Positions 41,324 through 57,828 of a DNA stretch of 64,000 bases are shown piece by piece. Position numbers and translations under genes: made by a program. Under the pieces are notes generated by a model. The model was not told the origin of the DNA. It saw nothing but the letters and a program-made list of their open reading frames with translations, and did no database searches. The stretch lies in contig NZ_SSSR01000002.1 of assembly GCF_009469695.1 (NCBI RefSeq), positions 310,001 through 374,000 of the forward strand, written 5' to 3'. The DNA comes from Propionivibrio limicola (GTDB lineage Bacteria > Pseudomonadota > Gammaproteobacteria > Burkholderiales > Rhodocyclaceae). Position 1 is the stretch's first letter. Each line of letters begins with the position of its first letter.

Positions 41324-41413
41324 AACCACCAAGACGCCAAGGACACCAAGTTGCACCAAGAAAAACAGGGGGATCACTTGGTGATCCTTTGTGTTCTTTG
41401 TGTCTTGGTGGTT
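41324..41413. repeat. CCAAG-type palindromic element, copy a
   Basis: An imperfect palindrome about 90 bases long between cysH and cysD. The left arm reads ACCACCAAG-ACGCCAAG-GACACCAAG-TTGCACCAAG followed by AAAAACAGGGGG. The right arm is CACTTGGTG...TGTCTTGGTGGTT. Its outer end meets the cysH stop codon. It would form a long hairpin in the cys mRNA. Confidence 0.85.
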
Positions 41414-42138
41414 CAGATTTTCTTAATGTGCAGTCCGCATTCCTTCGTTTCCGGATTCTCCCACCACCAGCGGCCGGAGCGGACATCTTCGCCAACGGTA
41501 ACGGATCGGGTGCAGGGAGCGCAGCCGATGCTCGGGTAGAACTTGTCATGCAGGACGTTGTACGGCACGTTGTGCAGCTTGATGTAAGTCCATACCTCGC
41601 GCTCGGTCCAGTCGGCGAGCGGATTGAATTTTTCCAGCCCGTTCGTTTCGTCGTAGATCTGCACCGGCAAACCGCCGCGCGTGGCCGATTGCTGGGCGCG
41701 CATGCCGGTGATCCAGGCTTTCTTGCCGGCGAGGGCGCGTTGCAGCGGCTCGACCTTGCGGATATGGCAGCAGCCCTTGCGCAGGTCGACCGATTCGTAG
41801 AAGGCGTTGATGCCGTGCTCGCGGGTGTAGGCTTCGATCAGGTCGTGACGCGGATAGAAAAGTTTCAGCGTCAGTCCGTAGTGTTTCCTGACTTCGGCGA
41901 TCAAATCGTAGGTTTCCGGCGGCAGACGGCCGGTATCGAGCGAAAAGTTCTCGATGTCGAACTTCTCGGACTGGATGATGTCGGTCAGGACCATGTCTTC
42001 GGCGCTGAGACTGTTGGCCAGTGCGGCCGGCGAAAAGTCGCTGGCGATCCTGCGCAGCAGGGCGCGAACCTGTTCGGTCTTGGCGGCGACGGAGTCAAGC
42101 AGCGCTTGATCGTCGGGTTTGGCGAGTTTGATGCCCAC
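41413..42138 (-). CDS. cysH: Adenylylsulfate (APS) reductase
   Basis: 241 aa thioredoxin-dependent reductase making sulfite from APS. Unlike the PAPS-specific type it carries the [4Fe-4S] cysteines (RKGCCHIRK and IGCAPCTRS), plus the C-terminal catalytic Cys in KECGLHIKK. The PP-loop-like N-terminal region and TGMRAQQSATRGGL, important for APS binding, are conserved. It sits between DUF934 and cysD and is separated from cysD by a palindromic repeat. Confidence 0.95.
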   Translation of the reverse strand: MGIKLAKPDDQALLDSVAAKTEQVRALLRRIASDFSPAALANSLSAEDMVLTDIIQSEKFDIENFSLDTGRLPPETYDLIAEVRKHYGLTLKLFYPRHDLIEAYTREHGINAFYESVDLRKGCCHIRKVEPLQRALAGKKAWITGMRAQQSATRGGLPVQIYDETNGLEKFNPLADWTEREVWTYIKLHNVPYNVLHDKFYPSIGCAPCTRSVTVGEDVRSGRWWWENPETKECGLHIKKI

Positions 42139-42158
42139 TCTGTTTCTCCTGCAATAAC

Positions 42159-42665
42159 TCAGGCCGCGCGGCGGCGGAACAACGGTTGCGGCTGATCGAC
42201 CGCGGCCTGATAGGTTTCGCTGAAATCGTTGAGGCCGGCGAGAGCGGCGGCGATGTCCTTGTCGGCGCGGACGGCGTAGGCGTCGAAGCCGCAGCGCTTC
42301 ATGAAAAATAGCTGGTCGTGCAGCACATCGCCGATGGCGCGCAGTTCGCCCGTGTAGCCATAGCGTTCGCGCAGCAGGCGCGCCGTCGAGTAGCCGCGAC
42401 CGTCGGCAAATTTCGGGAAATTGACGGCGACGACGGCGAAATGGGCAAGATCGCCGGCGATGGCTTCCGGACCTTCGGCGCTGTCGAGCCAGACGCCAAT
42501 CGGTGCGCCAAGCGCAAGGATTTCGTCCTTGCGTGCCTGCCAGACGGCGAGCGGCAGCAACTGGTTGGCACCGAACGTCACGGCATCAGCCGTTTCACCC
42601 TCCGCCAATTTGACGACTTGCCAGGCATCTTCGACGATCTGGCCGTTCTTGATGATCTTAGACAT
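42159..42665 (-). CDS. DUF934 protein of sulfite reduction
   Basis: 168 aa DUF934 family protein from ATG 42665 (MSKIIKNGQIVEDAWQVV). The core carries LGAPIGVWLDSAEGPEAI and FPKFADGRGYSTARLLRERYGY, which are family hallmarks. Members are nearly always next to cysI in beta- and gammaproteobacteria and are thought to assist sulfite reductase, but the biochemistry is not established. It overlaps the end of cysI by eight bases and precedes cysH by 20. Confidence 0.92.
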   Translation of the reverse strand: MSKIIKNGQIVEDAWQVVKLAEGETADAVTFGANQLLPLAVWQARKDEILALGAPIGVWLDSAEGPEAIAGDLAHFAVVAVNFPKFADGRGYSTARLLRERYGYTGELRAIGDVLHDQLFFMKRCGFDAYAVRADKDIAAALAGLNDFSETYQAAVDQPQPLFRRRAA

Positions 42666-44358
42666 TGGCTTCTCCCGTAGCTTGTTTGGCGGTTTTTTTG
42701 CGATCACGTCCCTGATAGGCGCGCTCCTTGAACGGCTCGATGCCGAGACGCTGGAAGGTGTCGATAAAGCGTTCGCTGTCCGTGCGGTTTTCGACATAGA
42801 CATTGACCAGCGCTTCGACGACGTCCGGTACTTCCTCGGCCGAGAACGACGGGCCGATGACCTTGCCGAGCGTCGTCGCGTTGCCTTGCTGGCCGCCGAC
42901 CGTGACCTGGTACCACTCCTCGTTGTTCTTATCGACGCCGAGCACGCCGATGTTGGCAACGTGGTGGTGGCCGCAGGAGTTCATGCACCCCGAGATGTTC
43001 AGCGAAATGTCGCCGAGATCGTGCAGGTAGTCGAGATCGTCGAATTTCTGGTGGATAGCCTGCGCGATCGGCACCGAGCGGGCGTTGGCCAGCGCGCACA
43101 GATCGCCGCCGGGGCAGCAGATCATGTCGGTCAGAAGCCCGATGTTTGCGGTAGCGAGGCCTTGGGCGCGGGCGAGGGTCCAGACTTCCAAGAGATCGCG
43201 CTGGCGGACGTCGGCCAGCACCACGTTCTGTTCGTGCGTCACCCGCAGCTCGCCAAAGCTGAAGCGGTCAGCGAGATCAGCGACGGCGTCCATCTGCACG
43301 TCGGAGATGTCGCCCGGGGCAACGCCGGCCGCTTTCAGCGACAGCGTCACGGCCGCGTAGCCGGGCACTTTGTGCGGACGCACGCTGCGTTTGACCCACG
43401 CGGCAAACGCTTTATTGCCCGCGACAGCTTCGTCGAACGCGGTGTCGTTGGCCGGCAGCGATTCGTAGGCCGGCGGGGCGAAGTGCGCCGCAATCCGGTT
43501 GAACTCTCCGTCGGTCAGCGTCGCCGGGCCGTCCTTGATGAACGCCCATTCTTCCTCGACTTGGCGGGCGAATTCCTCCACGCCGAGGGCGTTCACCAGA
43601 ATCTTGATGCGCGCCTTGTACATGTTGTCGCGACGGCCGTAGCGGTTATACACGCGCAGCAGGGCGTCGAGGTAGGTCAGCAGGTGCTGGCGCGGCAGGA
43701 ATTCGCGCACGACCTTGCCGATGACTGGGGTGCGCCCCATGCCGCCACCGGCAAAGACGCGAACGCCGATCTCGCCAGATTCGTTCGTGACGATTTCCAG
43801 CCCGACGTCATGCGCGCGGATGACAGCGCGGTCCTCTGCCGCCGCATTGACGGCAATCTTGAACTTGCGCGGCAGGAAGGCGAATTCCGGGTGGAACGTC
43901 GACCACTGGCGCAGCACTTCGCACCACGGGCGCGGGTCGGTCAACTCGTCGGGCGCGACGCCGGCGAACGGATCGGTCGTGATGTTGCGGATGCAGTTGC
44001 CCGAAGTCTGGATGGCGTGCATCTCGACGGTCGCCAGTTCGCCGAGGATTTCCGGCGTTTCCTCGAACTTCGGCCAGTTGAGCTGCATGTTCTGGCGGGT
44101 CGTGAAGTGGCCGACGCTCTTGTCGTAGCGGCGCGAGATGTCGGCAAGCTTGCGTAACTGATCCGCCGCAAGCAGACCGTACGGAATGGCGATGCGCAGC
44201 ATCGGGCCGTGGCGCTGGATATAGAGGCCGTTCTGCAAGCGCAGCGGGCGCAATTCGTCGTCGGAGAGCGTACCGGCTAGGTTGCGGGCGATTTGGCCGC
44301 GATACTGGGCGACGCGCTCGTTGATGAGCTGTTGGTCGATGCTGTCGTAGCGATACAT
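42658..44358 (-). CDS. cysI: Sulfite reductase hemoprotein (CysI/nitrite-sulfite reductase)
   Basis: 566 aa siroheme-[4Fe-4S] reductase that takes sulfite to sulfide. The cluster and siroheme ligands are MICCPGGDLC and SGCMNSCGHHHVANIG. The two ferredoxin-like half domains each contain a TTRQNMQLNWP- or THEQNVVLADV-type segment. No flavoprotein CysJ is next to it, so the electron donor is probably ferredoxin or encoded elsewhere. It is preceded by a TauE/SafE transporter 28 bases upstream. Confidence 0.94.
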   Translation of the reverse strand: MYRYDSIDQQLINERVAQYRGQIARNLAGTLSDDELRPLRLQNGLYIQRHGPMLRIAIPYGLLAADQLRKLADISRRYDKSVGHFTTRQNMQLNWPKFEETPEILGELATVEMHAIQTSGNCIRNITTDPFAGVAPDELTDPRPWCEVLRQWSTFHPEFAFLPRKFKIAVNAAAEDRAVIRAHDVGLEIVTNESGEIGVRVFAGGGMGRTPVIGKVVREFLPRQHLLTYLDALLRVYNRYGRRDNMYKARIKILVNALGVEEFARQVEEEWAFIKDGPATLTDGEFNRIAAHFAPPAYESLPANDTAFDEAVAGNKAFAAWVKRSVRPHKVPGYAAVTLSLKAAGVAPGDISDVQMDAVADLADRFSFGELRVTHEQNVVLADVRQRDLLEVWTLARAQGLATANIGLLTDMICCPGGDLCALANARSVPIAQAIHQKFDDLDYLHDLGDISLNISGCMNSCGHHHVANIGVLGVDKNNEEWYQVTVGGQQGNATTLGKVIGPSFSAEEVPDVVEALVNVYVENRTDSERFIDTFQRLGIEPFKERAYQGRDRKKTAKQATGEANV

Positions 44359-44386
44359 GGTTCGCTGTCCTTATGATGAAAAAGAA

Positions 44387-45163
44387 TTACAACGCAATCA
44401 GTTTGCCGCCGACGAGAACGAGCATGCTCGCCAGAATCGGCCGCAGGAAACGCTCGGGCACCTTCGCCGACAGGTGGCTGCCGAGCCAGATGCCGGGCAA
44501 CGAGCCCAACAACAGGCTGCCGAGCAGCGCCCAGTCGATGCTTCCCAGCGCCCAGTGTCCGATGCCGGCGACCAGCGTCAGCGGTACGGCGTGGGCAAGG
44601 TCGCTGCCCACGATGCGGATGGCGGGGAGCTTCGGATAAAGAAAGAATAGAACAGCCACGCCGAGCGCACCGGCACCCACTGAGGAAATCGTGACGAGTA
44701 TACCGAGCACCAAACCGACAGCTACGGTAATTGGAGCCCGGTATTGCGTATGAGTTCTATCCTCCGCATGGGCCAGGGCATACCGCTGCAGCTTGTGGCG
44801 GAAGATGATCGCCAGCGCCGTAAGCAGCAGGGCGATGCCCAGCGAAACCGAAATGGTATGCGTCACGGCCGCGCTTTGCGTGGGCAGCCGGGAGAGAACC
44901 CAGATCGTGATGATCGCGGCGGGAATGCTGCCGGCGGCGAGCAGGCCGGTGATGCGCCAGTCGACATGGCCCTTGCGCGCATGAACGGTGGTGCCGCCAG
45001 CCTTCGTGATGGCGGCGTAGAGGAGATCGGTACCGACGGCGGTGGCCGGATGCACGCCGAAGAGCAGCACCAACAGGGGCGTCATCAGCGAGCCGCCACC
45101 GACGCCGGTGAGACCGACGATGCCGCCGACGATGAATCCGGAAAGAGGGTAGAGCCAGTCCAT
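44387..45163 (-). CDS. TauE/SafE family sulfite exporter-like permease
   Basis: 258 aa membrane protein with about eight membrane segments. The first is YPLSGFIVGGIVGLTGVGGGSLMTPLLVLLFG, which contains the family GxxGxGGG pattern, and a repeat-like second half follows (GLVLGILVTISSVGAGALGV). It is the first gene of the minus-strand sulfur operon. A role in sulfite, sulfate or organosulfur transport is likely from context. The start faces cysB across a 108-base region holding a LysR-type box. Confidence 0.9.
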   Translation of the reverse strand: MDWLYPLSGFIVGGIVGLTGVGGGSLMTPLLVLLFGVHPATAVGTDLLYAAITKAGGTTVHARKGHVDWRITGLLAAGSIPAAIITIWVLSRLPTQSAAVTHTISVSLGIALLLTALAIIFRHKLQRYALAHAEDRTHTQYRAPITVAVGLVLGILVTISSVGAGALGVAVLFFLYPKLPAIRIVGSDLAHAVPLTLVAGIGHWALGSIDWALLGSLLLGSLPGIWLGSHLSAKVPERFLRPILASMLVLVGGKLIAL

Positions 45164-45233
45164 GAAATTTCACCCCGCCTGTTGAAAGTCTGCGCATGGT
45201 AGACCGGACGGCTTGAGTGAAAAAGAATAATAA

Positions 45234-45253
45234 GTTAGATTGCTAGAACTAAC
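45234..45253. promoter_or_regulatory. LysR-type operator between tauE and cysB
   Basis: GTTAG (45234-45238) and CTAAC (45249-45253) form an inverted repeat separated by ten bases, which matches the LysR-type TNA-N-TNA box size. ATAA and TTAT flanks extend it. CysB probably binds here and controls both the sulfur operon and itself. Confidence 0.55.
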
Positions 45254-45271
45254 TGTTATTAAGTGGCGGCG

Positions 45272-46219
45272 ATGAAGCTACAACAACTGCGTTATCTGGT
45301 CGAGGTGGCCCGTTGCGGACTCAATGTGTCCGAGGCGGCCGAGGTGTTGTACACGTCCCAGCCTGGCATTTCCAAGCAGATCAAACTGCTTGAGGATGAG
45401 CTTGGCGTTGTCGTTTTCGAGCGCAGCGGCAAGCGCCTGACCGGCATCACCGAGCCGGGCAAGCGCATCCTCGAAATCGCCGGGCGTGTGTTGCAGGAAG
45501 TCGGCAACATCAAGCGCGTCGGGCAGGAATACGCGGGCGGCGAAACGGGCAGCCTGGTGATCGCCACGACCCATACGCAGGCGCGCTACGCGTTGCCGGC
45601 CGTGGTCAAGCGGTTCGTGGAGCGGCATCCGGATGTGCGCCTCTCGATGCATCAGGGCAATCCGACGCAAATCGCCGAATGGACGATCAAGGGCGAGGCG
45701 GATATTGCCATCGCCACCGAGGCGCTCGATCAGTATCCGCAGCTCATCATGTTGCCTTGCTATCAATGGGGGCACAGCGTCATCGCGCCGGAAGGTCATC
45801 CCATTCTGGCCGAAAAATCGATCACGCTGGCGACGTTGGCCCGCTGGCCGTTGATTACGTACGATCCGGCTTTCTCCGGGCGTTCGCGCATCAACCATGC
45901 CTTCGAGCGCGCCCAGCTGACGCCCAATATCGTGCTGGCGGCGATCGATGCTGACGTCATCAAGACCTACGTTGGATTGGGCCTCGGATTGGGCATCATC
46001 GCCAGCATGGCGTTCGATCCTGCACGCGACCAAGGGCTGCAGGCGATCAACGTCGAACACCTGTTCGGTTCGAATACGACGCGCATCGGCCTGCGGCGCG
46101 GCACTTACCTGCGCCGTTTCGAATACGATTTCATTGAACTGTTTGCCTCACATCTGACCAAAAGGGCTGTCGATATGGCGATGGCCGGTTCCGGAGCGAA
46201 TGATGAATACCAACTTTGA
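45272..46219 (+). CDS. cysB: LysR-family regulator CysB
   Basis: 315 aa LysR-type transcriptional regulator from ATG 45272. The winged HTH is MKLQQLRYLVEVARCGLNVS and EAAEVLYTSQPGISKQIKLLEDELG. The ligand-binding domain has features of CysB/Cbl (TTHTQARYALPAVVKRFVERHPDV; PLITYDPAFSGRSRINHAF). CysB senses sulfur status through O/N-acetylserine and activates sulfate assimilation. It is divergent from the sulfur operon. Its end overlaps the small gene at 46200. Confidence 0.92.
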   Translation: MKLQQLRYLVEVARCGLNVSEAAEVLYTSQPGISKQIKLLEDELGVVVFERSGKRLTGITEPGKRILEIAGRVLQEVGNIKRVGQEYAGGETGSLVIATTHTQARYALPAVVKRFVERHPDVRLSMHQGNPTQIAEWTIKGEADIAIATEALDQYPQLIMLPCYQWGHSVIAPEGHPILAEKSITLATLARWPLITYDPAFSGRSRINHAFERAQLTPNIVLAAIDADVIKTYVGLGLGLGIIASMAFDPARDQGLQAINVEHLFGSNTTRIGLRRGTYLRRFEYDFIELFASHLTKRAVDMAMAGSGANDEYQL

Positions 46220-46559
46220 CCGCGAATTCGAGCGTCTGGCGGGCCCGCCCAAAAGCCCGCTGGCGCAACTGTTCGCCGCCCTGATCGGTCTTGTTGTCCT
46301 GGGGCTGGCGTTCATGTTCTCGCTCGTCGTCTTTGCCATCGTGGCGGTTGTCGGCGTTTTCCTCTGGCTTTATTTCTGGTGGAAGACGCGTGCGTTGCGC
46401 AAACAGATTCAAGCGCAAATGGCCGATGCGCAGACCGCGTGGCAGCAGAAACCCACATTCGACGCGTCTTCCGGAAAAGAAGAGTTGCCCGGCGCCATCA
46501 TCGATGGCGAGTCCACGCGCGTGGATGAGCCTGGCGACAGATCCCCGGGACGAGATTAG
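46200..46559 (+). CDS. Small membrane protein of unknown function
   Basis: 119 aa. Residues about 20-60 form one long or two close hydrophobic segments (LFAALIGLVVLGLAFMFSLV, VFAIVAVVGVFLWLYFWW) and the C-terminal half is polar and disordered-looking. The start overlaps the cysB stop by 20 bases, so it is probably co-translated. The gene has normal codon use for the region. It ends 15 bases from the convergent patatin gene. Confidence 0.65.
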   Translation: MMNTNFDREFERLAGPPKSPLAQLFAALIGLVVLGLAFMFSLVVFAIVAVVGVFLWLYFWWKTRALRKQIQAQMADAQTAWQQKPTFDASSGKEELPGAIIDGESTRVDEPGDRSPGRD

Positions 46560-46574
46560 GGCCGCCTGGCCCGA

Positions 46575-48758
46575 TCAAGGGGTGCCGAGCAACAGGTAGA
46601 GGTTCGACGATCCTGAAGGCGAGTGGGCATAGCCGAGATAAACCGGACCCAGCGGGGTATCGCCGCCAAAGTAGATGCCGGTGCTGTTGATCCAGCCATC
46701 CTGTCGGGTTTCCGTGTAGCGGTCGCTGACCCGGCCTCTTTCGAAAGCCAGGCCGGCGCGCAAATCACCGCGGAGACCGAGCGGCATGCGGCCGATAACC
46801 TTTTCCGCCCGGATCTGACCGTAGGTCGCCGCGCCGCCCAGAATCTGGTCTTTGCCGAATGCGGACAGGTTGAAGAGCCCTCCGAGGGACGCCGGATCAT
46901 AGGTCGGTAACGGGTCATTGACGCCCATCGAACGGGAAATCCGCGCGTTGACGACGTAATCGCCAATCGAATAGGCGGCGGCAAGATTGGCGTCGATGCG
47001 TCCGTAGTCGTTATCGACCGAGTGGAAGTAGCGAACCTGAGCCTTCCAGCCGCGCGTCGGGAAGTAGGCCCGGTCGAACTGATCGAGATCCAGACTGGCG
47101 ATCCAGCCACTGTTGTCGAGCGACGGGTTGTCAAAGATCGGCGAGCCGGTCTCCAGCTCCGCGTCGCGTTTTTGTTCCAGCCAACCTGCGCGCAGGCGGC
47201 CGAGCAGGCCGATGTTCATCCCTGCACCGAGCGAAGCAAAGCGCGTATCGATCTTGTATTCCGCCAGGCGGTCGCCATCCTGATACAGGCCAGCGTGCTC
47301 ACGCCGGATGCCGGCCAGGGCTTCCACGAAGAAGCGTTGTTGCGGGTCGAGTGGCTGGTAATACTCGATGCCGATATTGGGATTGCTGCCGATTTCTGCC
47401 GTTGTCAACAACTCGGCGCCCAGGCTGTTGAGCCAGGTCTTGTGATAGGCGCCGCGCAGCAGGTAGGAGGATCCATCGATCTCTTCCGTTTCCAGCGCGA
47501 CGCCAAAGCGCAGGTAGTCCGGACCCCAGAATTTTTCGAGGGGCGTCACGGTCATGATTCGCCGGTCGCGGATCGGCTGCATCGAGTATTCGACGCGCTC
47601 ATAGTAGCCATCGCCATAGACCCGCAAGATGTCCCGGTTGAGTTCCTGCGTATCGATGGTGTCGCCGGGTTTTGCGCGCAGGTGCCGCTCGACAGCGCCG
47701 GGATTGACGTAGCGCAAGCCGGCGACGTTGATTTCTTCCAGAACGCTGGTTTCCCGTTTGGCGATCTCCATCGTGTTCCACCAGGCGGCGTATTCCTCGT
47801 CGGGGACCGAGAGGCTGCGCAGCTTGTCGGCAATCGCTTCCGCCGCCTTGCGGCCACGGTCGGCGGTCTCGGCATGCCTTTCGAAGTCGCCCGCCGTAAT
47901 GCCTTCGAGATCGGGTTTTATGTAGATGTCCGACGGTCTTAGCAGGGCAAGCGAGCGGGAGACATTCTGCTCGGTCAGGATATTCACCATCTGCGCCGAA
48001 ACGGTCAGCAGCGAGCCAATTTCCTCCGGTTTGAGCAGCGGGCTGCCAACGTTCACGGCGATGACTACGTCGGGGCTGCAACGTGCATGCACTTCCGAGA
48101 TCGGCACGTTGTCGACCAAGCCTCCGTCGACCAGCTTGTGGCCGTTCTGCTCGACCGGGGCCAGCAGGCCGGGGACCGACATGCTGGCGCGCATCGCGGT
48201 TGTCAGGTTGCCGTCCCGGAAAACGATGCGGTCGCCGTTGCCGATGTCGGTGGCGATGATCGAGAGCGGCAATGGCAGATCTTCAATATGACGCTCGGTG
48301 ACATCGGCGTGAACCAGGTGGTTGAAGAACAAGCGGATTTTCTGGCCAGTCACGACGCCGGGCGGCAGCACCACGCCCTTGTCCGTTACGCCCATTTCGG
48401 AAGCCGGCAGGAAACGCGTGTTGATTTTCTTGTTGCGGTAGCTCTGCTCGCTGTAATCCGGCGCGTCGATGAACATGTCGCGCCAATCGGCTTTGGCGAG
48501 CTCTTCCCGCATGACCTGCGGACTCAGACCGGCGGCGTAGCTGCCGGCGACGAGGGCACCCATGCTGGTGCCGGCGATACAGTCAATCTTCACCTTGTGC
48601 CGTTCGAGCACCTCCAGCACGCCAATATGAGCCGCGCCCCGCGCGCCGCCGCCGCCAAGCACAAGCCCGACCGTCGGGCGGGCGGTAGCTTCGGCCCCGA
48701 TCAGCAGCGAACAGAGCGTGAAAAAGGGGGCAAGAAATCGGATCGTCGGTGTTTTCAT
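46575..48758 (-). CDS. plpD: Patatin-like phospholipase with beta-barrel (PlpD, type Vd autotransporter)
   Basis: 727 aa. A signal peptide (to about residue 26, ATA) leads into a patatin domain with GGGGARG (35-41), GTSMG (nucleophile Ser65) and DGG (211-213). A POTRA-like module follows at about 310-385 (LEEINVAGLRYVNPGAVERH). A 16-stranded Omp85-type barrel ends the protein (about 400-727; WIASLDLDQFDRAYFPTRGW). This is the architecture of PlpD, in which the barrel secretes the lipase to the surface. It has no clear partner in the window and lies convergent with the gene at 46200. Confidence 0.93.
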   Translation of the reverse strand: MKTPTIRFLAPFFTLCSLLIGAEATARPTVGLVLGGGGARGAAHIGVLEVLERHKVKIDCIAGTSMGALVAGSYAAGLSPQVMREELAKADWRDMFIDAPDYSEQSYRNKKINTRFLPASEMGVTDKGVVLPPGVVTGQKIRLFFNHLVHADVTERHIEDLPLPLSIIATDIGNGDRIVFRDGNLTTAMRASMSVPGLLAPVEQNGHKLVDGGLVDNVPISEVHARCSPDVVIAVNVGSPLLKPEEIGSLLTVSAQMVNILTEQNVSRSLALLRPSDIYIKPDLEGITAGDFERHAETADRGRKAAEAIADKLRSLSVPDEEYAAWWNTMEIAKRETSVLEEINVAGLRYVNPGAVERHLRAKPGDTIDTQELNRDILRVYGDGYYERVEYSMQPIRDRRIMTVTPLEKFWGPDYLRFGVALETEEIDGSSYLLRGAYHKTWLNSLGAELLTTAEIGSNPNIGIEYYQPLDPQQRFFVEALAGIRREHAGLYQDGDRLAEYKIDTRFASLGAGMNIGLLGRLRAGWLEQKRDAELETGSPIFDNPSLDNSGWIASLDLDQFDRAYFPTRGWKAQVRYFHSVDNDYGRIDANLAAAYSIGDYVVNARISRSMGVNDPLPTYDPASLGGLFNLSAFGKDQILGGAATYGQIRAEKVIGRMPLGLRGDLRAGLAFERGRVSDRYTETRQDGWINSTGIYFGGDTPLGPVYLGYAHSPSGSSNLYLLLGTP

Positions 48759-48939
48759 TGGGTCTCTTTGTCGATGGCCGCGCTACAGCTACAGGGTAAA
48801 ACAGGCGTCATCATAATGCCGAAACCCATTGGCCCGATCACAGAGGTGCACGCCACGGCGTTGGAAGCGGTTTTGCCTTCGGGGGCGGGTAGTCCGGAGC
48901 ACTATCGCCCTTGCGCACGGGGGCAGAGGCTGCCTCCCG

Positions 48940-50940: not shown

Positions 50941-51023
50941 AATCTCCAGTCTACTTTTACATCATAGACGGAAGTTGGCGTGTTCAAGGTGTTGTGGTGA
51001 TGGAATGCCGAGCTAAAAAAGCG

Positions 51024-51124
51024 AACCACCAAGTCACCAAGGGCTCCAAGTTTCACCAAGAAAAATTCTGGGAGTGTTTTGCTTTTCTTGGTGCTTCTTT
51101 GAGTTCTTGGTGTCTTTGTGGTGA
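51024..51124. repeat. CCAAG-type palindromic element, copy b
   Basis: About 100 bases between DUF1841 and the GGDEF gene. The left arm reads ACCACCAAG-TCACCAAG-GGCTCCAAG-TTTCACCAAG then AAAAATTC. The right arm is TTTTCTTGGTGCTTCTTTGAG then TTCTTGGTGTCTTTGTGGTG. The loop is longer than in the other copies. Confidence 0.8.
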
Positions 51125-51147
51125 AGCTTTTCGATTTTCTGTTACGG

Positions 51148-51579
51148 CTACGTCTTCTGCGCGACTCGCTGGATCGATTCGAGATATTTCACAGCGTCCA
51201 TCGGGCCGCCGTTGCGTTGGGCTTCCCAGATGGTTTCGCCGAGGCATTCCATGATGGCGTGTTCGGCGTCGTGGACGTCGAGGCGCGTGCGCAGCGTTTC
51301 ATAGGCAGCGCGGATGCCGGGCGGCTGGTCGATGCTGATCTGTTCGGCGATGGCCAGATGCAGCGACAGGTGGAGGAACGGGTTCATCTGCCCCGTTTCC
51401 GGGGTGAATTCCTGTTCGACGGCCGCTTCCTGGCTCTCCAGCAGGGCGTGGTATTCGGGATGTTCGGCGATGAGGTCGGCGGCGACGGCTTCGGCGCCGT
51501 CGAGAATCTGCCGGTCGCGGTGTTTGCGCCAGGCGTCGCAGAAAAAGCGGCGAACTTGCTCACGGGAGGGATTGAACAT
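51148..51579 (-). CDS. DUF1841 protein
   Basis: 143 aa from ATG 51579 (MFNPSREQVRRFFCDAWRKH), a typical DUF1841 start. The central LIAEHPEYHALLESQEAAVE and FLHLSLHLAIAEQISIDQPPG match the family, which is confined mainly to beta- and gammaproteobacteria and has no known function. The start lies within the last 20 bases of the FIST gene, so it belongs to the same unit. Conserved His and Glu residues in a helical bundle are suggestive of metal binding, unproven. Confidence 0.85.
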   Translation of the reverse strand: MFNPSREQVRRFFCDAWRKHRDRQILDGAEAVAADLIAEHPEYHALLESQEAAVEQEFTPETGQMNPFLHLSLHLAIAEQISIDQPPGIRAAYETLRTRLDVHDAEHAIMECLGETIWEAQRNGGPMDAVKYLESIQRVAQKT

Positions 51580-52699
51580 GGGCTTCCTTCGAATGTGGGC
51601 GGATGAGGGCGGTGACGACGGCGTTCTGTAAATGGCGGTTGAGGCGTTGCGACGTGCCGGATGACGGTGCAATTTGTCCCGTTCCGTACGTACCGATGAC
51701 CGGCAAGCCGGGAAAACGTTCAAGCAGCGCGGCCAGATCGCGGTCGTCGCGACCGTAGAAGTACGGGCCGCGCCCGATGCAGGAAAACATCAGGGCGCAG
51801 GCAGGCAGCGTTTGGGCCGCGCCGTCGCTCGCCGCGAGGCTGTCGAGCGTGCGCCGCATGTCGGCCTCGGCGGACGACGGTTCGCGGATGGCCCAGTTCA
51901 GATACTGGCCGGGCGCGACGCGTTCGCCGAGCGTCAGCGATGAGTCGCTGTTGGCCGCGATGATCGGTAGCGGACGGTGGCGCCCTTGCGCCGCCGCCAG
52001 TCGGGCTTCGCCGGGGTTTGCGGTTGCGTCGTCGAGCAGAACGGCGGTGAGTTGGTGCAGCGACTGGGCCAGATGCGGGCGCAGTTCCGGCGGCAGGGCG
52101 AGGCGCAGACTGTCCTGCGCCGAGTGTCCACCGATCGCGTTTAGGTCGTAGCCGTTGCTGCGTTCGACCCGCTGTGGGGAGCCGAGCAAGCGCAACCCGC
52201 AGGAGACGCCGACATCGATGTGCGCGTTCGGGAATTGCAGTTCGCACCGTTGTTCGTCGATCAGACGGCCCTGCTGCCAGACGGGCGGCGCGGCATTTCC
52301 GGAGAATGTACTGCCGAAGCGCGGAGCCCCTTCGCGCCAAGCGGGCGGGAAATTGCCGCCGGCGTAGCTGAACGTCGGTGTCGAGGCGTCTGCGCTGGGG
52401 GCGGGCGAGAGGTCGCCGCAGAAAAGCATGATGGCGGCGGCCGGCCGGTCGACGGCCCAGCCTTCCTCGGTCAACACGCCGGAAGCGATGCCGCCGGCAA
52501 TCTGCAGGCAGGAGGCGGCGCGCGCCGCCGCCGTAATGGCCTGCCGGGCGTGGTCGTGATGGGTGAATTCCGGCGTCAGGAAAAGCAGGGCGCTGCGGGC
52601 ATGCGGCTGGTCGCTTTTGGCGAGGGCGCGCGCCACCGCCTCCTCCACGAGTTGTGGCAACGGCTCGTTGCCGGAAACAAGCGCGGTGGCGATGGTCAT
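51560..52699 (-). CDS. FIST domain signal-transduction protein
   Basis: 379 aa, made of FIST_N (about 25-200) and FIST_C (about 215-355). Recognisable parts are GGIASGVLTEEGW and ALMFSCIGRGPYFYGRDDRD with PVIGTYGTGQIAP, the last typical of FIST_C. FIST proteins are thought to sense small ligands such as amino acids. It starts at 52699, overlapping the nth stop by four bases. The association with an Rnf-nth operon is therefore structural, with no obvious functional link. Confidence 0.85.
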   Translation of the reverse strand: MTIATALVSGNEPLPQLVEEAVARALAKSDQPHARSALLFLTPEFTHHDHARQAITAAARAASCLQIAGGIASGVLTEEGWAVDRPAAAIMLFCGDLSPAPSADASTPTFSYAGGNFPPAWREGAPRFGSTFSGNAAPPVWQQGRLIDEQRCELQFPNAHIDVGVSCGLRLLGSPQRVERSNGYDLNAIGGHSAQDSLRLALPPELRPHLAQSLHQLTAVLLDDATANPGEARLAAAQGRHRPLPIIAANSDSSLTLGERVAPGQYLNWAIREPSSAEADMRRTLDSLAASDGAAQTLPACALMFSCIGRGPYFYGRDDRDLAALLERFPGLPVIGTYGTGQIAPSSGTSQRLNRHLQNAVVTALIRPHSKEAHVQSLP

Positions 52700-53379
52700 T
52701 TTTCGGTCGAGACTATTGGCTTTGGCATGGGGATCATCACGTCGTCCCCGCACGTTTTTTCCTTGTACTCGCACAGGTCGACGATCAGGCAGCGTCCGCA
52801 TTCCGGCTTGCGCGCCTTGCAGATGTAGCGACCGTGCAGGATCAGCCAGTGGTGGGCGTCGTGCCGGAATTCGGCGGGCACGACTTTCAGCAGCTTTTGT
52901 TCGACCGCCAGCGGCGTTTTTCCGGGGGCGAGCCCGATGCGGTTGGCGACACGGAAAATGTGCGTGTCCACCGCAATCGTCGGTTCGCCAAAGGCGGTGT
53001 TGAGAACCACGTTGGCCGTCTTGCGGCCGACGCCGGGCAAGGCTTCGAGCGATTCGCGGTCGCGCGGCACGTCGCCGCCGTGTTTTTCGAGCAGCTGGCG
53101 GCAGGTGGCGATGACGTTCTTCGCCTTGTTACGGTAGAGGCCGATGCGGTTGATGTACGTCTCCAGCCCGGCCTCGCCGAGCGCGGCCATGGTTTCCGGC
53201 GTCGGCGCGTCGGCGAACAGCCGCCGCGTGGCGAGGTTGACGCTCTTGTCGGTGGCTTGCGCGGAGAGGATGACGGCGACCAGCAGCTGGAACGGCGTCG
53301 CGTATTCGAGCTCGGTTGTCGGCGCCGGATTGGCGGCGCGCAGGCGTTCGAAAATGGCTTGGCGCTTGGCGGCGTTCAT
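52696..53379 (-). CDS. nth: Endonuclease III
   Basis: 227 aa DNA glycosylase/AP lyase of base excision repair. The helix-hairpin-helix LPGVGRKTANVVL holds catalytic Lys120. The catalytic Asp138 lies in VDTHIFRVANR. The [4Fe-4S] cluster ligands follow C-x6-C-x2-C-x5-C in CKARKPECGRCLIVDLC. It removes oxidised pyrimidines. It follows rsxE by six bases, the same rsx-nth linkage as in E. coli. Confidence 0.96.
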   Translation of the reverse strand: MNAAKRQAIFERLRAANPAPTTELEYATPFQLLVAVILSAQATDKSVNLATRRLFADAPTPETMAALGEAGLETYINRIGLYRNKAKNVIATCRQLLEKHGGDVPRDRESLEALPGVGRKTANVVLNTAFGEPTIAVDTHIFRVANRIGLAPGKTPLAVEQKLLKVVPAEFRHDAHHWLILHGRYICKARKPECGRCLIVDLCEYKEKTCGDDVMIPMPKPIVSTEK

Positions 53380-53385
53380 GATCGG

Positions 53386-54081
53386 TTACTGCGCGGCGGA
53401 GACTGTCTGCGGTGCCGGCGGTAGCGTCTTGCGCGAACGGTGCGCGGCAATGCGTGCGTCGACCCAGTTTTTCCAGGCGATCAGGCAGCCGAGTACGATG
53501 AAGGCGCCGGGCGGCAGCATGGCGATCAGGAAGCCGGGATAGTCGGCAGGTAGCAATTGCAGCGGCTGGAGGCCGGGAATGACCATGTCGATGCCGGAAA
53601 ACAGCGTGCCCTTGCCGATCAGCTCGCGCAGCCCGCCGAGCAGCGAGAGCGTCCACAGCATGCCGACGCCCATGAAGACACCGTCGAACAGCGATTGCAG
53701 CGGCGGGTTCTTGTTGGCGAAGGCTTCGACGCGGGCGAGCACAATGCAGTTGGTGACAATCAGCGGGATGAAGATGCCGAGCACGAGATAGAGCTGGTGC
53801 AGGTTGGCGTTGAACAAGAGGTCGATCACCGTCACCAGCGAGGCGACGACGAGGATGAACACCGGAATGCGGATTTCATGCGGGATCAGGTTGCGCAGGC
53901 TGGCGACGGCGACGCTCGACGCCGCCATGACGATGATCGTCGCCAGCGACAGCATTGCGCCGTTGACGAGGTTCGTCGTCACGGCGAGCAAGGGGCACAG
54001 ACCGAGAATCTGCACGAGACTGGTGTTCTGCTTCCAGAGGCCGTTGGCGGCGATCTGGCGGAATTCGTTGCGGGTGATCAT
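53386..54081 (-). CDS. rsxE: Electron transport complex subunit RsxE (RnfE)
   Basis: 231 aa membrane protein of the RnfA/RnfE family with about six membrane segments. KQNTSLVQILGLCPLLAVTTN and NCIVLARVEAFANKNP are the family half-repeats, with Cys residues that hold the intramembrane [2Fe-2S] cluster with RsxA. It is the last Rnf gene before nth. A palindromic repeat lies between rsxG and this gene. Confidence 0.94.
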   Translation of the reverse strand: MITRNEFRQIAANGLWKQNTSLVQILGLCPLLAVTTNLVNGAMLSLATIIVMAASSVAVASLRNLIPHEIRIPVFILVVASLVTVIDLLFNANLHQLYLVLGIFIPLIVTNCIVLARVEAFANKNPPLQSLFDGVFMGVGMLWTLSLLGGLRELIGKGTLFSGIDMVIPGLQPLQLLPADYPGFLIAMLPPGAFIVLGCLIAWKNWVDARIAAHRSRKTLPPAPQTVSAAQ

Positions 54082-54104
54082 GGCGTGACCTCGGCAAAAA
54101 AGCG

Positions 54105-54190
54105 AACCACCAAGACTCCAAGATCACCAAGAGGCACCAAGTAAAATCGTTTTCCTTGGTGAAACTTGGTGCTCTTGGTGACTTGGTGGT
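54105..54190. repeat. CCAAG-type palindromic element, copy c
   Basis: About 86 bases between rsxG and rsxE. The left arm reads ACCACCAAG-ACTCCAAG-ATCACCAAG-AGGCACCAAG followed by TAAAATCG. The right arm is CCTTGGTG-AAACTTGGTG-CTCTTGGTG-ACTTGGTGGT. The arms pair almost fully. Confidence 0.87.
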
Positions 54191-54207
54191 GAATGGTTTT
54201 CATGTGT

Positions 54208-54864
54208 TCATTGCCCGGCAGTAAGCCGTACCCGGTTCGCTTCCACATACAGCGCGGCCTTGCGCACGGCTTTGATGATGGCGCGTGGCGTGACGGTGGC
54301 GCCGGCGACGGAATCGAAGCGACCGCCGTCCTTTTTGACTTTCCAGTCGCGCTCATCGACGATGCTGGGCGCGAGTCCGTCGAACTGGGTGATCCACGGG
54401 CCTTCCCGGTTTTTGTCCTTTTTCGGCTCGATGTAGTCGCCGACGCCCGGCGTCTCCTTGTGCTGAATGACGCGGACGCCGCGCAGCGTGCCATCGACGC
54501 CGAGCGCGATCAGCAGGCGGATCTTGCCAGCGTAGCCGTCGGGCGCCACGGCTTCGAAGACGAGGGTTTCAATCTGGCCGTTCTTGCGCGCGCGGAACAG
54601 TTTCATTTCCGTGTCCGTGCCCAGCGCCGCGACCGGTTCGAGGCGCACGAAGTCGTTGAGCAAGTCGTTGTCGTAGGACTGGCGCGGCAGCACTTCATCG
54701 ATCAGCTTCATTTTCTCTTCCGCGGCCGCCGCCTCGATGGCCGGGCGTGTCCAGAGATAAGCGCCGGAGAGCAGCGCGGTGAAGACGACCATGAACAGGA
54801 CCAGGATGAGAGCCGTGCGGACGGCCATTTGCGGGGCGGAGGGCGGGCGGACGAGGTGGTTCAT
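54208..54864 (-). CDS. rsxG: Electron transport complex subunit RsxG (RnfG)
   Basis: 218 aa from ATG 54864. One N-terminal membrane segment (about 17-38, LILVLFMVVFTALLSGAYL) anchors a periplasmic FMN-binding domain. The covalent FMN site is the AGATVTPRAI motif near the C-terminus, with the Thr of GAT carrying the flavin. KETPGVGDYIEPKKDK is conserved. It overlaps rsxD by four bases and precedes rsxE. Confidence 0.94.
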   Translation of the reverse strand: MNHLVRPPSAPQMAVRTALILVLFMVVFTALLSGAYLWTRPAIEAAAAEEKMKLIDEVLPRQSYDNDLLNDFVRLEPVAALGTDTEMKLFRARKNGQIETLVFEAVAPDGYAGKIRLLIALGVDGTLRGVRVIQHKETPGVGDYIEPKKDKNREGPWITQFDGLAPSIVDERDWKVKKDGGRFDSVAGATVTPRAIIKAVRKAALYVEANRVRLTAGQ

Positions 54865-55880
54865 TTTTCGCCCTTCATCCCGAAAATCGGCGGCTGTGTG
54901 TAAAGGTCGATCAATGGCACGCAGAGGTTGAGCAGCAGGACGGAGAACGCCACACCGTCCGGGTAACCGCCGAAAACTCGGATCAGGTAGGCAATGAGGC
55001 CCGCCGCAAAACCGAAGATCAGCTTGCCCTTCGGCGTCGTGCTGCCGGACACCGGATCGGTGACGATGAAAAAGGCGCCGAGCATTGTGCCGCCGGAAAA
55101 GAGGTGGAAGAGCGGGCTGGCAAACTGGGCCGGGTTCCACAGCCAGAGTGCGCCGGAGAGGGCAACCATCCCGCCGAGGAAGCTGAGCGGAAGGTGCCAG
55201 CCGATGACCTTGCGCTGCCAGAGCCACAGTCCACCGGCGAGGTAGGCTGCCGCCACCCACTCCCAGCCGTGGCCGCCCATCCGGCCGAAGATGCGCGTGT
55301 CGGCCAGGATGGCGCCCACGGAAACCTGGCCTTCACCGAGCTTGAGCGCGGTCTTCAGCGTGTCGAGCGGCGTCGCGCCGTTCATCGCATCGAGGCGCGG
55401 CAGCTGGCCGAACATGACGGCCACGTGGTCGGCGAAGCTCGCGTCCATGTTGAGCGACGGCCAGCGCGACATCAGCGCCGGAAAGGAGACGATGCAGACG
55501 GCAAAGGCGATCATCGCCGGATTGAAAGGGTTCTGGCCGAGCCCGCCGTAGAGATGCTTGGCGACAACGATGGCGAAGGCGACGCCGACGACGATCAGCC
55601 ACCACGGCGCCATGGGCGGGAACGCGAGCGCGATCAGCCAGGCGGTGACGATGGCGCTGCCGTCGCCGAGAAACAGGCCGAGCGGCTTGTCGACCAGCTT
55701 GAGCATCACGGCTTCGGCGGCCAGCGCAGTTGCCGTGGCGATGGCCAGTTGCACGAGCACGATCGGTCCGAGCAGCCAGAGATAGACGCCAATCGCCGGC
55801 AACAGCGCCGCCAGCACCTGCAGCATGATCCGGCGGACGCTGACGTTCTGGGTCAGATAGGGAGGGGAAGTGAAGTTCAT
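54861..55880 (-). CDS. rsxD: Electron transport complex subunit RsxD (RnfD)
   Basis: 339 aa membrane protein of the NqrB/RnfD family, with about nine membrane segments. The covalent FMN site is in NGATPLDTLK, an SGAT-type motif. GLGQNPFNPAMIAFAVCIVS and GGTMLGAFFIVTDPVSGSTT are conserved. It forms the core electron and ion path of the Rnf complex with RsxG. The start is separated from rsxC by a palindromic repeat. Confidence 0.95.
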   Translation of the reverse strand: MNFTSPPYLTQNVSVRRIMLQVLAALLPAIGVYLWLLGPIVLVQLAIATATALAAEAVMLKLVDKPLGLFLGDGSAIVTAWLIALAFPPMAPWWLIVVGVAFAIVVAKHLYGGLGQNPFNPAMIAFAVCIVSFPALMSRWPSLNMDASFADHVAVMFGQLPRLDAMNGATPLDTLKTALKLGEGQVSVGAILADTRIFGRMGGHGWEWVAAAYLAGGLWLWQRKVIGWHLPLSFLGGMVALSGALWLWNPAQFASPLFHLFSGGTMLGAFFIVTDPVSGSTTPKGKLIFGFAAGLIAYLIRVFGGYPDGVAFSVLLLNLCVPLIDLYTQPPIFGMKGEK

Positions 55881-55920
55881 GGCGCTTTAATCTCTTACGC
55901 AGCAGAGGCGATAAATGCTT

Positions 55921-56009
55921 CACCACCAAGGCACCAAGAGCACAAAGATTCACCAAGAAAACAGGGGGGGGGCTTGGTGCCCCCTTGGTGTCTTGGTGCC
56001 TTGGTGGTT
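55921..56009. repeat. CCAAG-type palindromic element, copy d
   Basis: 89 bases between rsxC and rsxD. The left arm reads CACCACCAAG-GCACCAAG-AGCACAAAG-ATTCACCAAG then AAAACAGGGGGG. The right arm is GGCTTGGTGC-CCCCTTGGTG-TCTTGGTG-CCTTGGTGGTT. It shares AAAACAGGGGG with copy a, showing the two are related. Confidence 0.88.
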
Positions 56010-56040
56010 TGCTTTTTTGGTTGCACGACGACTGGTTTTC

Positions 56041-57741
56041 TCATTCTTCTTCTCTCTGCGCCCTCTGTATCTCTGCGTTGGAAGCGTTCTGCGGTTCCTG
56101 CAACGGCACCCGTCGCGCCTCGATTTCGGCGATTTCCTTCCTTTGGGCGACGGTCAGCTCGTCGGTGTTTTTCGGTTTGACCTGCTCACGCTGCTTGCGA
56201 GCGCGTTCCATCGCGGCGGCGATGGCCGCTTTCTTGGCGGCGTCGGGGTCGAAGGCCGGTTGCTCTGTGGCGGGCTGGCCGGTGTCGGCGGGTTGTTGCG
56301 TTGGAGCCGCGACTCTGGCTGCCGCTGCTTTTGCCAGCCGTTCGGCCTTTTCCGCCTTTTCGCGTTCTTCGCGCTCATTGCGGAGTTCGAAGCGCTCCCG
56401 GGCCGCGTCGGCATTCTCCTTTTCGCGTTCGCGCGCCCAGATTTCGCTTTTGGCGAAGCGGAAATACTGGACGAGCGGAATGCGGGACGGGCAAACGTAG
56501 CTGCAACAGCCGCATTCGATGCAGTCGAACAGGTTATATTCCTGCGTCTTGCCGAAGTTGTGGGCGCGCGCAAACCAGTAGAGCTCCAAGGGCTGCAACT
56601 CATGCGGGCAAGCCTCGGCGCAGGCACCGCAACGGATGCAGGGCATTTCCGGCGCGGGGGGCGGAAAAATGGCCGGTGAGCTGGCAATAATGCAGTTGGT
56701 GGCCTTGACGATCGGCGCGTCGAGACCTGGCATGTCGAAGCCCATCATCGGGCCGCCCATCACGTAGCGGTTGGTGTCGGCCTTCGGCTGCATCAGCGGT
56801 ACGAGGTCGCGCAACGGCGTGCCGAGCAGTACCTCCCAGTTGCGCGGCTGCGCGACATTGCCGGTGAGCGTCACGATGCGCGAAATGACCGGCTCGCCAA
56901 ACGCGATGGCCCGCCAGGCGGTGTAGGCCGTGGCGACGTTGAAACACTGCACGCCCAGGTCCGGCGAGCGTTTGCTGGCCGGGATTTCCTTGCCGGTGAG
57001 TACGCGGATCAGTTGCTTGGCGCCGCCGGCCGGGTAGAGCGTTGGTACCGCGATGACTTCGAAGTTCTCGCCGACGGCCTTGACGGCGGCCTGCATGGCG
57101 GCGATGGCCTCGGGCTTGTTGTCCTCGATGCCGATCAGCACGCGTTTCGGTTGCAGCAGGTCGCGGAAAATGCCGATGCCGCGCACGATGTCTTCGCCGC
57201 GCTCGCGCATCAACAGATCGTCGCAGCTCATGAACGGCTCGCACTCGGCGCCGTTGATGACGAGCTCTTCCATCGGCACGTCGCTGGCGGCGGTCAGCTT
57301 GGCGTGACTTGGAAAAACGGCGCCGCCCAAGCCGACCACGCCGGCATCGCGCAGGAGTTCGCGAACCTGTTCCGGTTCGAGTCGGCCGTAATCGACGGGC
57401 TGGCGTTTGATCCACTCGTCGCGACCGTCCGCCTCGATGACGACCGATAGCGTTGGCAAACCGGAGGGATGCGCGGCGAGGCGTTCCTCGATGGCGATGA
57501 CGGTCCCCGAGGTCGGCGCATGCACGGCCGACGATATCCATTTGTCCGGAGCGCCGATGCGCTGCCCCTTGCGGACGCGATCGCCGGCCTGCACCAGCGG
57601 GTGCGGCTGGCCACCGATGCTCTGGTGCAGCGGTACGATCAGCTGTGCCGGCACGGGGGCTGCCGCGATCGGAAAACGGACCGAATCGGCCTTGTAGGTC
57701 GGCGGCTTGATACCGCCCTTGAACTTGAACAACGAAAACAT
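56041..57741 (-). CDS. rsxC: Electron transport complex subunit RsxC (RnfC)
   Basis: 566 aa peripheral subunit that passes electrons from NADH or ferredoxin into Rnf. After the N-terminal RnfC domain (about 1-120) comes a complex I 51-kDa-like segment (about 125-300). Two ferredoxin-type [4Fe-4S] sites follow, CIRCGACAEACP and CIECGCCSYVCP (about 370-425), then a Glu/Lys/Ala-rich coiled tail. The last codons (NAEIQRAQREEE) run through a CAGAG-type repeat, so this C-terminus may have been added by repeat insertion. Confidence 0.94.
   Translation of the reverse strand: MFSLFKFKGGIKPPTYKADSVRFPIAAAPVPAQLIVPLHQSIGGQPHPLVQAGDRVRKGQRIGAPDKWISSAVHAPTSGTVIAIEERLAAHPSGLPTLSVVIEADGRDEWIKRQPVDYGRLEPEQVRELLRDAGVVGLGGAVFPSHAKLTAASDVPMEELVINGAECEPFMSCDDLLMRERGEDIVRGIGIFRDLLQPKRVLIGIEDNKPEAIAAMQAAVKAVGENFEVIAVPTLYPAGGAKQLIRVLTGKEIPASKRSPDLGVQCFNVATAYTAWRAIAFGEPVISRIVTLTGNVAQPRNWEVLLGTPLRDLVPLMQPKADTNRYVMGGPMMGFDMPGLDAPIVKATNCIIASSPAIFPPPAPEMPCIRCGACAEACPHELQPLELYWFARAHNFGKTQEYNLFDCIECGCCSYVCPSRIPLVQYFRFAKSEIWAREREKENADAARERFELRNEREEREKAEKAERLAKAAAARVAAPTQQPADTGQPATEQPAFDPDAAKKAAIAAAMERARKQREQVKPKNTDELTVAQRKEIAEIEARRVPLQEPQNASNAEIQRAQREEE
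56051..56079. repeat. Half CAGAG-type element inside rsxC 3' end
   Basis: On the minus strand the last rsxC codons read AACGCAGAG-ATACAGAG-GGCGCAGAG, then AGAA. This is the same unit ladder as the left arm of copy e. No matching right arm is present. Confidence 0.7.
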
Positions 57742-57750
57742 AAATCAATA

Positions 57751-57828
57751 ACCACAGAGGCACAGAGGCACCGAGGCCGCACAGAGAAAAATGCTTTGTT
57801 TTCTCTGTGTCCCTGTGTCTCTGTGGTG
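57751..57828. repeat. CAGAG-type palindromic element, copy e
   Basis: 78 bases between rsxB and rsxC. The left arm reads ACCACAGAG-GCACAGAG-GCACCGAG-GCCGCACAGAG then AAAAATGC. The right arm is TTTTCTCTGTGT-CCCTGTGT-CTCTGTGGT. Same layout as the CCAAG copies, with different unit bases. Confidence 0.88.

Follow-up and report, generated by a model that had tools for sequence, protein, structure and literature searches.

What are the short palindromes that recur in the gaps between genes in one part of the Propionivibrio limicola genome, and how might they have come to be there? The stretch analyzed (hereafter, the window) comprises 64 kb of contig NZ_SSSR01000002.1 (positions 310,001 to 374,000; assembly GCF_009469695.1) and contains five palindromes of 77-98 bp each. 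We consider that they probably belong to a family of palindromic elements, as members that lack the gene; the full form of the element carries a GxxExxY gene in its loop, the product of which would move the copies. As far as sequence comparison can establish, the gene lies between arrays of short units, the type of these arms tracks the protein, similar copies exist without the gene, and the junctions that hold the elements turn over between species.

Palindromes in the window

A scan for clusters of at least three heptamer units returns the five palindromes that a first-pass annotation had placed in the window, and no others. In 200 first-order Markov sequences, such clusters averaged 0.035 per sequence, and no sequence had more than 1. 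The copies, designated 41324, 51024, 54105, 55921 and 57751, and one relic are listed below.

41324..41412, + strand: gene-less palindrome of CACCAAG units, between two PAPS-reductase-like genes; best match (97.9 bits) of R1, a covariance model made from the five copies of the window
51015..51131, + strand: gene-less palindrome with arms at 51025-51122 and outer ends AAAAAAGCGA / GAAGCTTTT, between HDOD-GGDEF and DUF1841 genes
54096..54200, + strand: gene-less palindrome with arms at 54106-54190 and unit spacing 8,9,10 / 10,9,8, between rnfG and rnfE
55913..56018, - strand: gene-less palindrome with arms at 55922-56008, between rnfD and rnfC; outer ends reversed relative to 51024 and 54105
56054..56084, - strand: relic of an older element of CGCAGAG type (its left arm), within the 3' end of rnfC (from comparison of L082 with L083, L085-L087, L089 and L092)
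57751..57827, + strand: gene-less palindrome of the CACAGAG subtype, with a right arm of three units, upstream of rnfC

Both arms are made of heptamer units, which are CACCAAG in four copies and CACAGAG in 57751. The plan of four units per arm ending in CCAAG or CAGAG, as first described, holds except for the right arm of 57751. Units of 41324, 51024 and 54105 are spaced 8, 9 and 10 nt going inward and in mirror order going outward, and 55921 has the spacing 8,9,10 / 11,8,8. In each copy, the arms of the longest inverted pair measure 25-45 nt and are 78-84% complementary. All five copies are predicted to fold into hairpins on both strands (z -5.35 to -7.77), and none of 200 shuffles was as stable in any of the 10 folds. 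Arms start with ACCACC, with AAAAAGCGA outside. Sequence conservation among 22 genomic copies reaches ~9-10 nt past the arms and then stops; TTCGCTTTTTT terminates some copies on one strand. The five copies had been assigned a common orientation, which is correct for the A run of the loop. It does not extend to the outer ends (AAAAAAGCGA- vs -GAAGC), which place 55921 in the sense opposite to 51024 and 54105.

The copies reside in short gaps next to protein genes, including those of the rnf gene cluster, and the right edge of 41324 is touched by the stop codon of a minus-strand open reading frame (ORF) at 41413-42138. Rfam models at gathering thresholds matched nothing in the window beyond two tRNAs. 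The CGCAGAG relic at 56054-56084 is the source of the last rnfC codons and, by eye, some sister species apparently read into the left arm of their own element too.

Dispersed copies in the genome

The expectation that the window palindromes have further copies was borne out. Against the 3.1-Mb genome, R1 produced 117 stranded matches (E ≤0.01) at no fewer than 61 distinct places, counted by hand (60 retrieved places plus 57751); the search scored the best 150 of 359 candidates, so that the copy number is a lower bound. Four units in each arm were recognized at 53 of the 60 places, and the remaining 7 were not parsed. The parsed copies are 77-128 bp long, with a median pairwise identity of 78%. 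Spacing of exactly 8, 9 and 10 occurs in both arms of 16 copies, to which 41324, 51024 and 54105 all belong, and in at least one arm of 42, as judged by a parser that accepted only 8, 9, 10 ±1 and cannot by itself prove that spacing.

Eleven of the 53 parsed copies form a young subfamily with at least 93% identity to the copy at L021 (itself counted), in flanks that are unrelated by eye. This subfamily looks like the product of a recent dispersal with sharp borders. Some of its members reach ~153 bp and end in 13-bp inverted ends, TAGTNGTCAGTCA. Both ends, with at most 2 mismatches, are present in 4 of the 11 young copies (L021, L338, L340 and L352) and in three copies outside the subfamily (L335, L354 and L357). 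These seven copies are ~144-154 bp long, and the 13-bp ends were not recognized on other copies of this genome. The string GTAG occurs in the 13-bp ends of young copies, but within the paired repeat. Thus, the palindromes resemble mobile sequences, as had been suspected: they are dispersed over ~61 places with sharp borders, copies that are nearly identical sit in unrelated flanks, and orthologous junctions are occupied in some species and empty in others.

Among 53 copies, 28 are between tandem genes, 14 between convergent genes, 3 between divergent genes and 3 within a predicted gene, with 5 unassigned; these calls are rough, and some window copies between co-directional genes were misassigned. 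In the 16 oriented copies, the facing spacers of the stem were complementary in 12 of 96 cells, compared with a mean of 26 in shuffles (1 of 5,000 as low), although part of the excess of mismatches came from mixed orientations before the copies were oriented (12/96 vs 36%) and shared descent may still contribute. Because facing spacers pair less than expected by chance, the stems of these short copies appear to consist of short helices split by kept mismatches. This is no general rule, since gene-bearing arms do not have the property (45/85 vs ~33 expected).

A GxxExxY gene between inverted arrays

The sole PF13366 gene of the genome (PDDEXK_3; TIGR04256 GxxExxY) is located between inverted CGCAGAG arrays, with its ATG immediately after the last unit of the left array. 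GxxExxY protein scores 141.3 bits with PF13366 (cut-off 22) and 145.9 bits with TIGR04256 (cut-off 35), and the catalytic residues D64, E74 and K76 are kept in 75 of 75 GxxExxY proteins. Judging from its sequence, GxxExxY is a small protein (~125 aa) of the PD-(D/E)XK nuclease fold and a predicted nuclease. A profile search with GxxExxY gave no matches among PDB sequences, and defence-system models gave a weak similarity to Cas4. Cas4 and Hjc-type PD-(D/E)XK nucleases are among the nearest folds and have the D, ExK and QxxxY motif in common with GxxExxY, which differs in its small size, in being stand-alone and in that its activity is predicted.

In the genus relative G286, a GxxExxY gene at the same junction, trpE-trpG, has CACCAAG arms, with left spacing of 8,9,10, a right arm of five units, and the ATG in the spacer ahead of the fourth unit. 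The outer end of this element, AAAGCGAACCACC, is common to 51024 and 54105. Since arms, spacing and outer end all match, the window palindromes correspond to a GxxExxY element minus its gene. Both arms are visible around the 11 GxxExxY genes of the genus that were inspected, except for L375 (right arm) and L378 (left arm). Both the trpE-trpG site and a second site are occupied by GxxExxY lineages that are only ~50-56% identical to each other and have different arms. A Propionivibrio-labelled locus, L113, has CACAGAG/CACGGAG arms, relative to which CCCTCTCCC arms would be non-cognate.

Beside trpE, nearly all units are of the CGC form in L001, L375 and L383 and of the CAC form in L381, L380 and L384, with proteins that are 66-82% identical. 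By eye, it is as if the units had changed together (L375 lacks the right arm).

Specificity of the association

At 21 of 30 GxxExxY loci of the class, the best inverted alignment between the two flanks scored higher than 99% of 785 same-locus controls. Another 80 loci came from a scan of named genomes, four of them with cut flanks; among the other 76, 49 scored higher than 99% of 9,898 controls. A stricter test demanded at least two CRCNRAG units on each side of the gene in inverted sense, and was applied to 110 loci, including the four with cut flanks. Such arrays were found at 62 of 110 GxxExxY loci and at 2 of 5,171 random placements, and at none of 30 loci each for 23S-IVP, DUF559 and ParE toxin genes. 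CRCNRAG arrays in the direct, or wrong, orientation occur at 13 of the 110 GxxExxY loci.

With phylum groups assigned from record titles, the strict arrays are present in Proteobacteria (9/9), Verrucomicrobiota (6/6), Chloroflexota (5/7), Planctomycetota (4/5), Acidobacteriota (2/6) and Desulfo/Geobacter (2/4). The association is not universal. The sole archaeal GxxExxY locus (L122, from a Methanothrix metagenome-assembled genome) does not pass the strict test, and a separate CACAGAG/CGCAGAG palindrome is present just downstream (L122:1850-2050).

Arm type also follows the protein. The more two proteins differ, the more their arm types tend to differ (Mantel r 0.27; 0 of 1,000 permutations), a relation to which shared descent may contribute. 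In the 80 contigs, 31 gene-less palindromes were found, and the 11 that lay no more than 300 bp from the gene were set aside. Twelve of the remaining palindromes share a contig with gene arms (8 contigs), and their units are closer to these arms (mean unit distance 0.60) than to gene arms on other contigs (1.31; 0 of 5,000 permutations).

Orthologous junctions

Junctions in related species were compared by eye. At rnfC-rnfD, a CGCAGAG element is present in L083, L085, L086 and L089 and a CACRGAG element in L087 and L092, and the junction is empty in, for example, L088, L090, L091, L094 and L096. The window genome has a CACCAAG palindrome there, plus the CGCAGAG relic within the end of rnfC. 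An element at rnfG-rnfE is present in this genome, L086 and L087, and in degenerate form in L089; no array was seen there by eye in the other loci among the 18 compared. The trpE-trpG junction holds gene-bearing elements in some species and is without one in L197, L198, L201 and L216, among others. Thus, insertion-free junctions, which the first-pass annotation had suggested mapping, exist among species, but the species are too diverged for exact insertion points.

Co-occurrence of gene and palindrome

The gene and the palindromes also tend to be found in the same genomes. Across 274 genomes of the class, where R1 was scored on at most 16 candidates per genome and copy numbers are lower bounds, PF13366 is present in 16 of 31 R1-positive genomes and in 29 of 243 R1-negative genomes (p = 1.1e-6; p = 3.6e-6 leaving out the source genome). 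Among 31 genomes of the genus and order, R1 matches were obtained in 7 of 8 PF13366-positive and 3 of 23 negative genomes (p = 0.0003); for the 19 genomes of the genus only, p = 0.02. In a joint fit, GxxExxY has the highest odds ratio (6.4), followed by IVP (3.0) and DUF559 (2.1).

A proposed mechanism and the evidence against it

We suggest that GxxExxY may recognize the iterated units, or the hairpin or cruciform that they form, and nick or cut the DNA there. Repair or replication could then make or move copies. The short palindromes would be non-autonomous derivatives mobilized in trans, in the manner proposed for repetitive extragenic palindromes (REPs) and RAYTs, but by an unrelated enzyme. 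Copies would be retained mostly 3' of genes and between the genes of an operon, positions at which a folded insert may do little harm.

Several observations weigh against this proposal. We infer movement by the GxxExxY nuclease from the patterns above, and no transposition was observed. No consistent target-site duplication was apparent by eye in young copies, and the 13-bp TAGTNGTCAGTCA outer repeats of these copies were not seen on the gene-bearing G286 element. The arms of the gene in the window genome are of the CGCAGAG type, unlike the CACCAAG of most palindromes there. The six GxxExxY copies beside trpE are 66-82% identical and look largely vertical, and at trpE-trpG in L383/L196 and L384/L202 the gene is apparently frameshifted by eye, with the arms kept. 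One GxxExxY query matched 4 plasmid records among 72,556 and no phage, unlike an ordinary transposon, and so gave no pairs of occupied and empty sites. The strict arrays are present in only 8 of 28 loci of the Bacteroidota group.

The co-occurrence argument has weaknesses of its own. Its statistics take no account of phylogeny. PF13366 is missing from 15 of the 31 R1-positive genomes of the class; thus, copies persist, or move, without GxxExxY. IVP genes (14/31 R1-positive genomes vs 42/243, p = 0.0013) and DUF559 genes (16/31 vs 69/243, p = 0.013) are also enriched. The co-occurrence therefore partly marks repeat-rich genomes, which weakens the genome-level argument.

The near-absence from plasmids and phages in this one query, together with persistence beside trpE in several species, suggests that the family leads a chromosomal and slow life, similar to that of REPs and RAYTs.

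Alternative explanations

It is unlikely, although worth serious consideration, that the palindromes are RNA elements resembling the intervening sequence (IVS) of 23S rRNA. The arm stem would be processed by RNase III or by GxxExxY, insertions would be tolerated in operons and rRNA, and the DNA would move otherwise. The strong hairpins on both strands and the location of most copies between co-directional or convergent genes fit this explanation. The 23S rRNA IVS also has the same plan: as a passage of PMC4990558 describes it, a long inverted repeat forms a stem that RNase III cuts, and its loop contains one small ORF (S23/IVP). IVP genes elsewhere also sit between inverted heptamer arrays. 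The window family differs from the IVS of that passage in its location beside protein genes, in its protein (GxxExxY) and in its units. The window copies themselves were rejected as 23S rRNA IVS because they are flanked by protein genes and are not within 23S rRNA. The low complementarity of facing spacers (12/96 cells) would interrupt a long RNase III helix, and mobility is left unexplained. The related suggestion that the palindromes are mRNA structures retains value for a possible effect on host transcripts, but it explains neither the dispersal nor the link to the gene.

Also unlikely is that the palindromes are REP-like miniature inverted-repeat transposable elements (MITEs) moved by a conventional transposase, either a RAYT or an enzyme dependent on terminal inverted repeats, with GxxExxY as cargo or as a user of the palindromes as landing sites. 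Young copies of up to ~153 bp with 13-bp inverted ends, and the three Y1_Tnp genes of the genome, are what this explanation can draw on. Like MITEs, the palindromes are short, non-autonomous and dispersed, and some young copies have inverted ends. They differ from MITEs in that no consistent target duplication was seen by eye and no transposase was found with the same ends. None sharing the TAGTNGTCAGTCA ends was noticed, in a genome not searched as a whole for such ends. The G286 GxxExxY element, which could be viewed as an autonomous relative, has the same arms and one outer end in common with the palindromes, but not the 13-bp ends.

The likeness to REPs and their RAYT tyrosine transposases, as treated in part of PMC3733652, lies in the many dispersed imperfect palindromes and in a small cognate gene flanked by a similar palindrome. 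However, the palindromes of the window family are ~77-128 bp rather than 20-40 bp and have 7-nt iterations in their arms, and the cognate protein has a PD-(D/E)XK fold, whereas RAYTs are Y1 HUH transposases. The length, the four-unit arms and the lack of a RAYT in the same repeat led us to reject RAYT-associated REPs as an identification. The three Y1_Tnp genes all lack flanking CACCAAG arrays of the window type, and one has a different, GTAG-type palindrome. Membership in the REP/RAYT system, or linkage to a RAYT, as earlier entertained, is therefore not supported; the linked gene is instead GxxExxY. A cargo role also leaves unexplained why CRCNRAG arms go with GxxExxY (62/110 vs 0/90) and track the protein. 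Separately, the Y1 transposase gene at L334 and its flanking GTAGGTCGGGTTAGCGCAGCGTAACCCGAC palindrome form a REP-type pair of this genome that is distinct from the window family.

It is improbable that the palindromes are host regulatory sites, such as paired tandem octamer-like arrays for IHF/HU-type proteins or bidirectional terminators. Class 1 (GTTGCTYN) and class 2 (TCTCCGTS[Y]) tandem units of Geobacter metallireducens form inverted pairs at variable distance, and class 2 sites were proposed as possible global regulator sites recognized by IHF/HU, according to a section of PMC2700814 (2009). Class 2 is the same kind of array and resembles the GxxExxY-type unit, and the TTCGCTTTTTT end on one strand of some copies would fit this explanation. 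The sites in that section were seen as possible IHF/HU sites, without a linked gene family. In the window family, divergent gene pairs hold few copies, junction occupancy varies among species of the genus, and a nuclease gene inside the element would be unexpected for a regulatory site. A terminator scan of the region gave 23 candidates vs 18.7 (sd 4.5) in shuffles, which is no clear excess.

Chance or assembly artefact has a negligible probability even though the source assembly is in 56 contigs, because five clusters were found vs 0.035 expected and other genomes of the genus, as well as other phyla, have similar elements.

Other small-gene families

The 23S-IVP family, a four-helix bundle (PF05635; L242-L271), had been chosen as a control, and 23 of its 30 loci were above the 99th percentile in the flank test. 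The arrays that flank IVP genes have other 7-nt units (TAGTTGC, TTCAGTG, GGGAGTA and more). DUF559 genes (PF04480; L272-L301) have a flank score above 34 in 23 of 30 loci, whereas ParE genes (loci from 104 genomes) exceed 28 in 1 of 30 loci and 34 in none. Hairpins of the form CCCTC..GAGGG are present on both sides of 23 of 30 DUF559 genes, compared with 1 of 110 GxxExxY, 0 of 30 IVP and 0 of 30 ParE genes and 1 of 5,171 random placements. Within the 80 GxxExxY loci of the named-genome scan, 51 inverted pairs have a gap of 200-1,600 bp. Of these, 29 surround the target gene and, by eye, some of the other 22 enclose IVP-like, DUF559-like or second GxxExxY genes. Genomes with R1 palindromes are richer in IVP and DUF559 genes, and these repeat systems tend to co-occur.

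IVP and DUF559 each come with a separate class of palindrome, which suggests that such systems are of a general kind. Tentatively, we propose that many unexplained palindromic repeats of bacteria and archaea could be one-gene systems, in which a small protein that acts on or binds nucleic acid (GxxExxY, DUF559 or 23S-IVP) is paired with its own iterated-unit palindromes, and which might spread by a new mechanism without a classical transposase. In such a mechanism, cruciforms or hairpins might, for example, be nicked in a structure-specific manner and then copied during repair.

Implications

Literature that links GxxExxY, DUF559 or IVP genes to palindromes was not found among the matches listed, with most subscription journals outside the scope. 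Searches with the repeat strings gave nothing relevant by title among the matches listed. Publications on PF13366, PDDEXK_3, TIGR04256 or GxxExxY are almost absent from the literature searched, and the one passage checked was unrelated.

Palindromes of tandem heptamers exist in many phyla and have so far been taken as regulator sites or left unnamed. The cognate gene is a candidate for their maker. The link between gene and palindrome turns a descriptive oddity into a testable pair of enzyme and substrate, and would give the large GxxExxY family a role. REPs and RAYTs may perhaps be one case of a wider principle.

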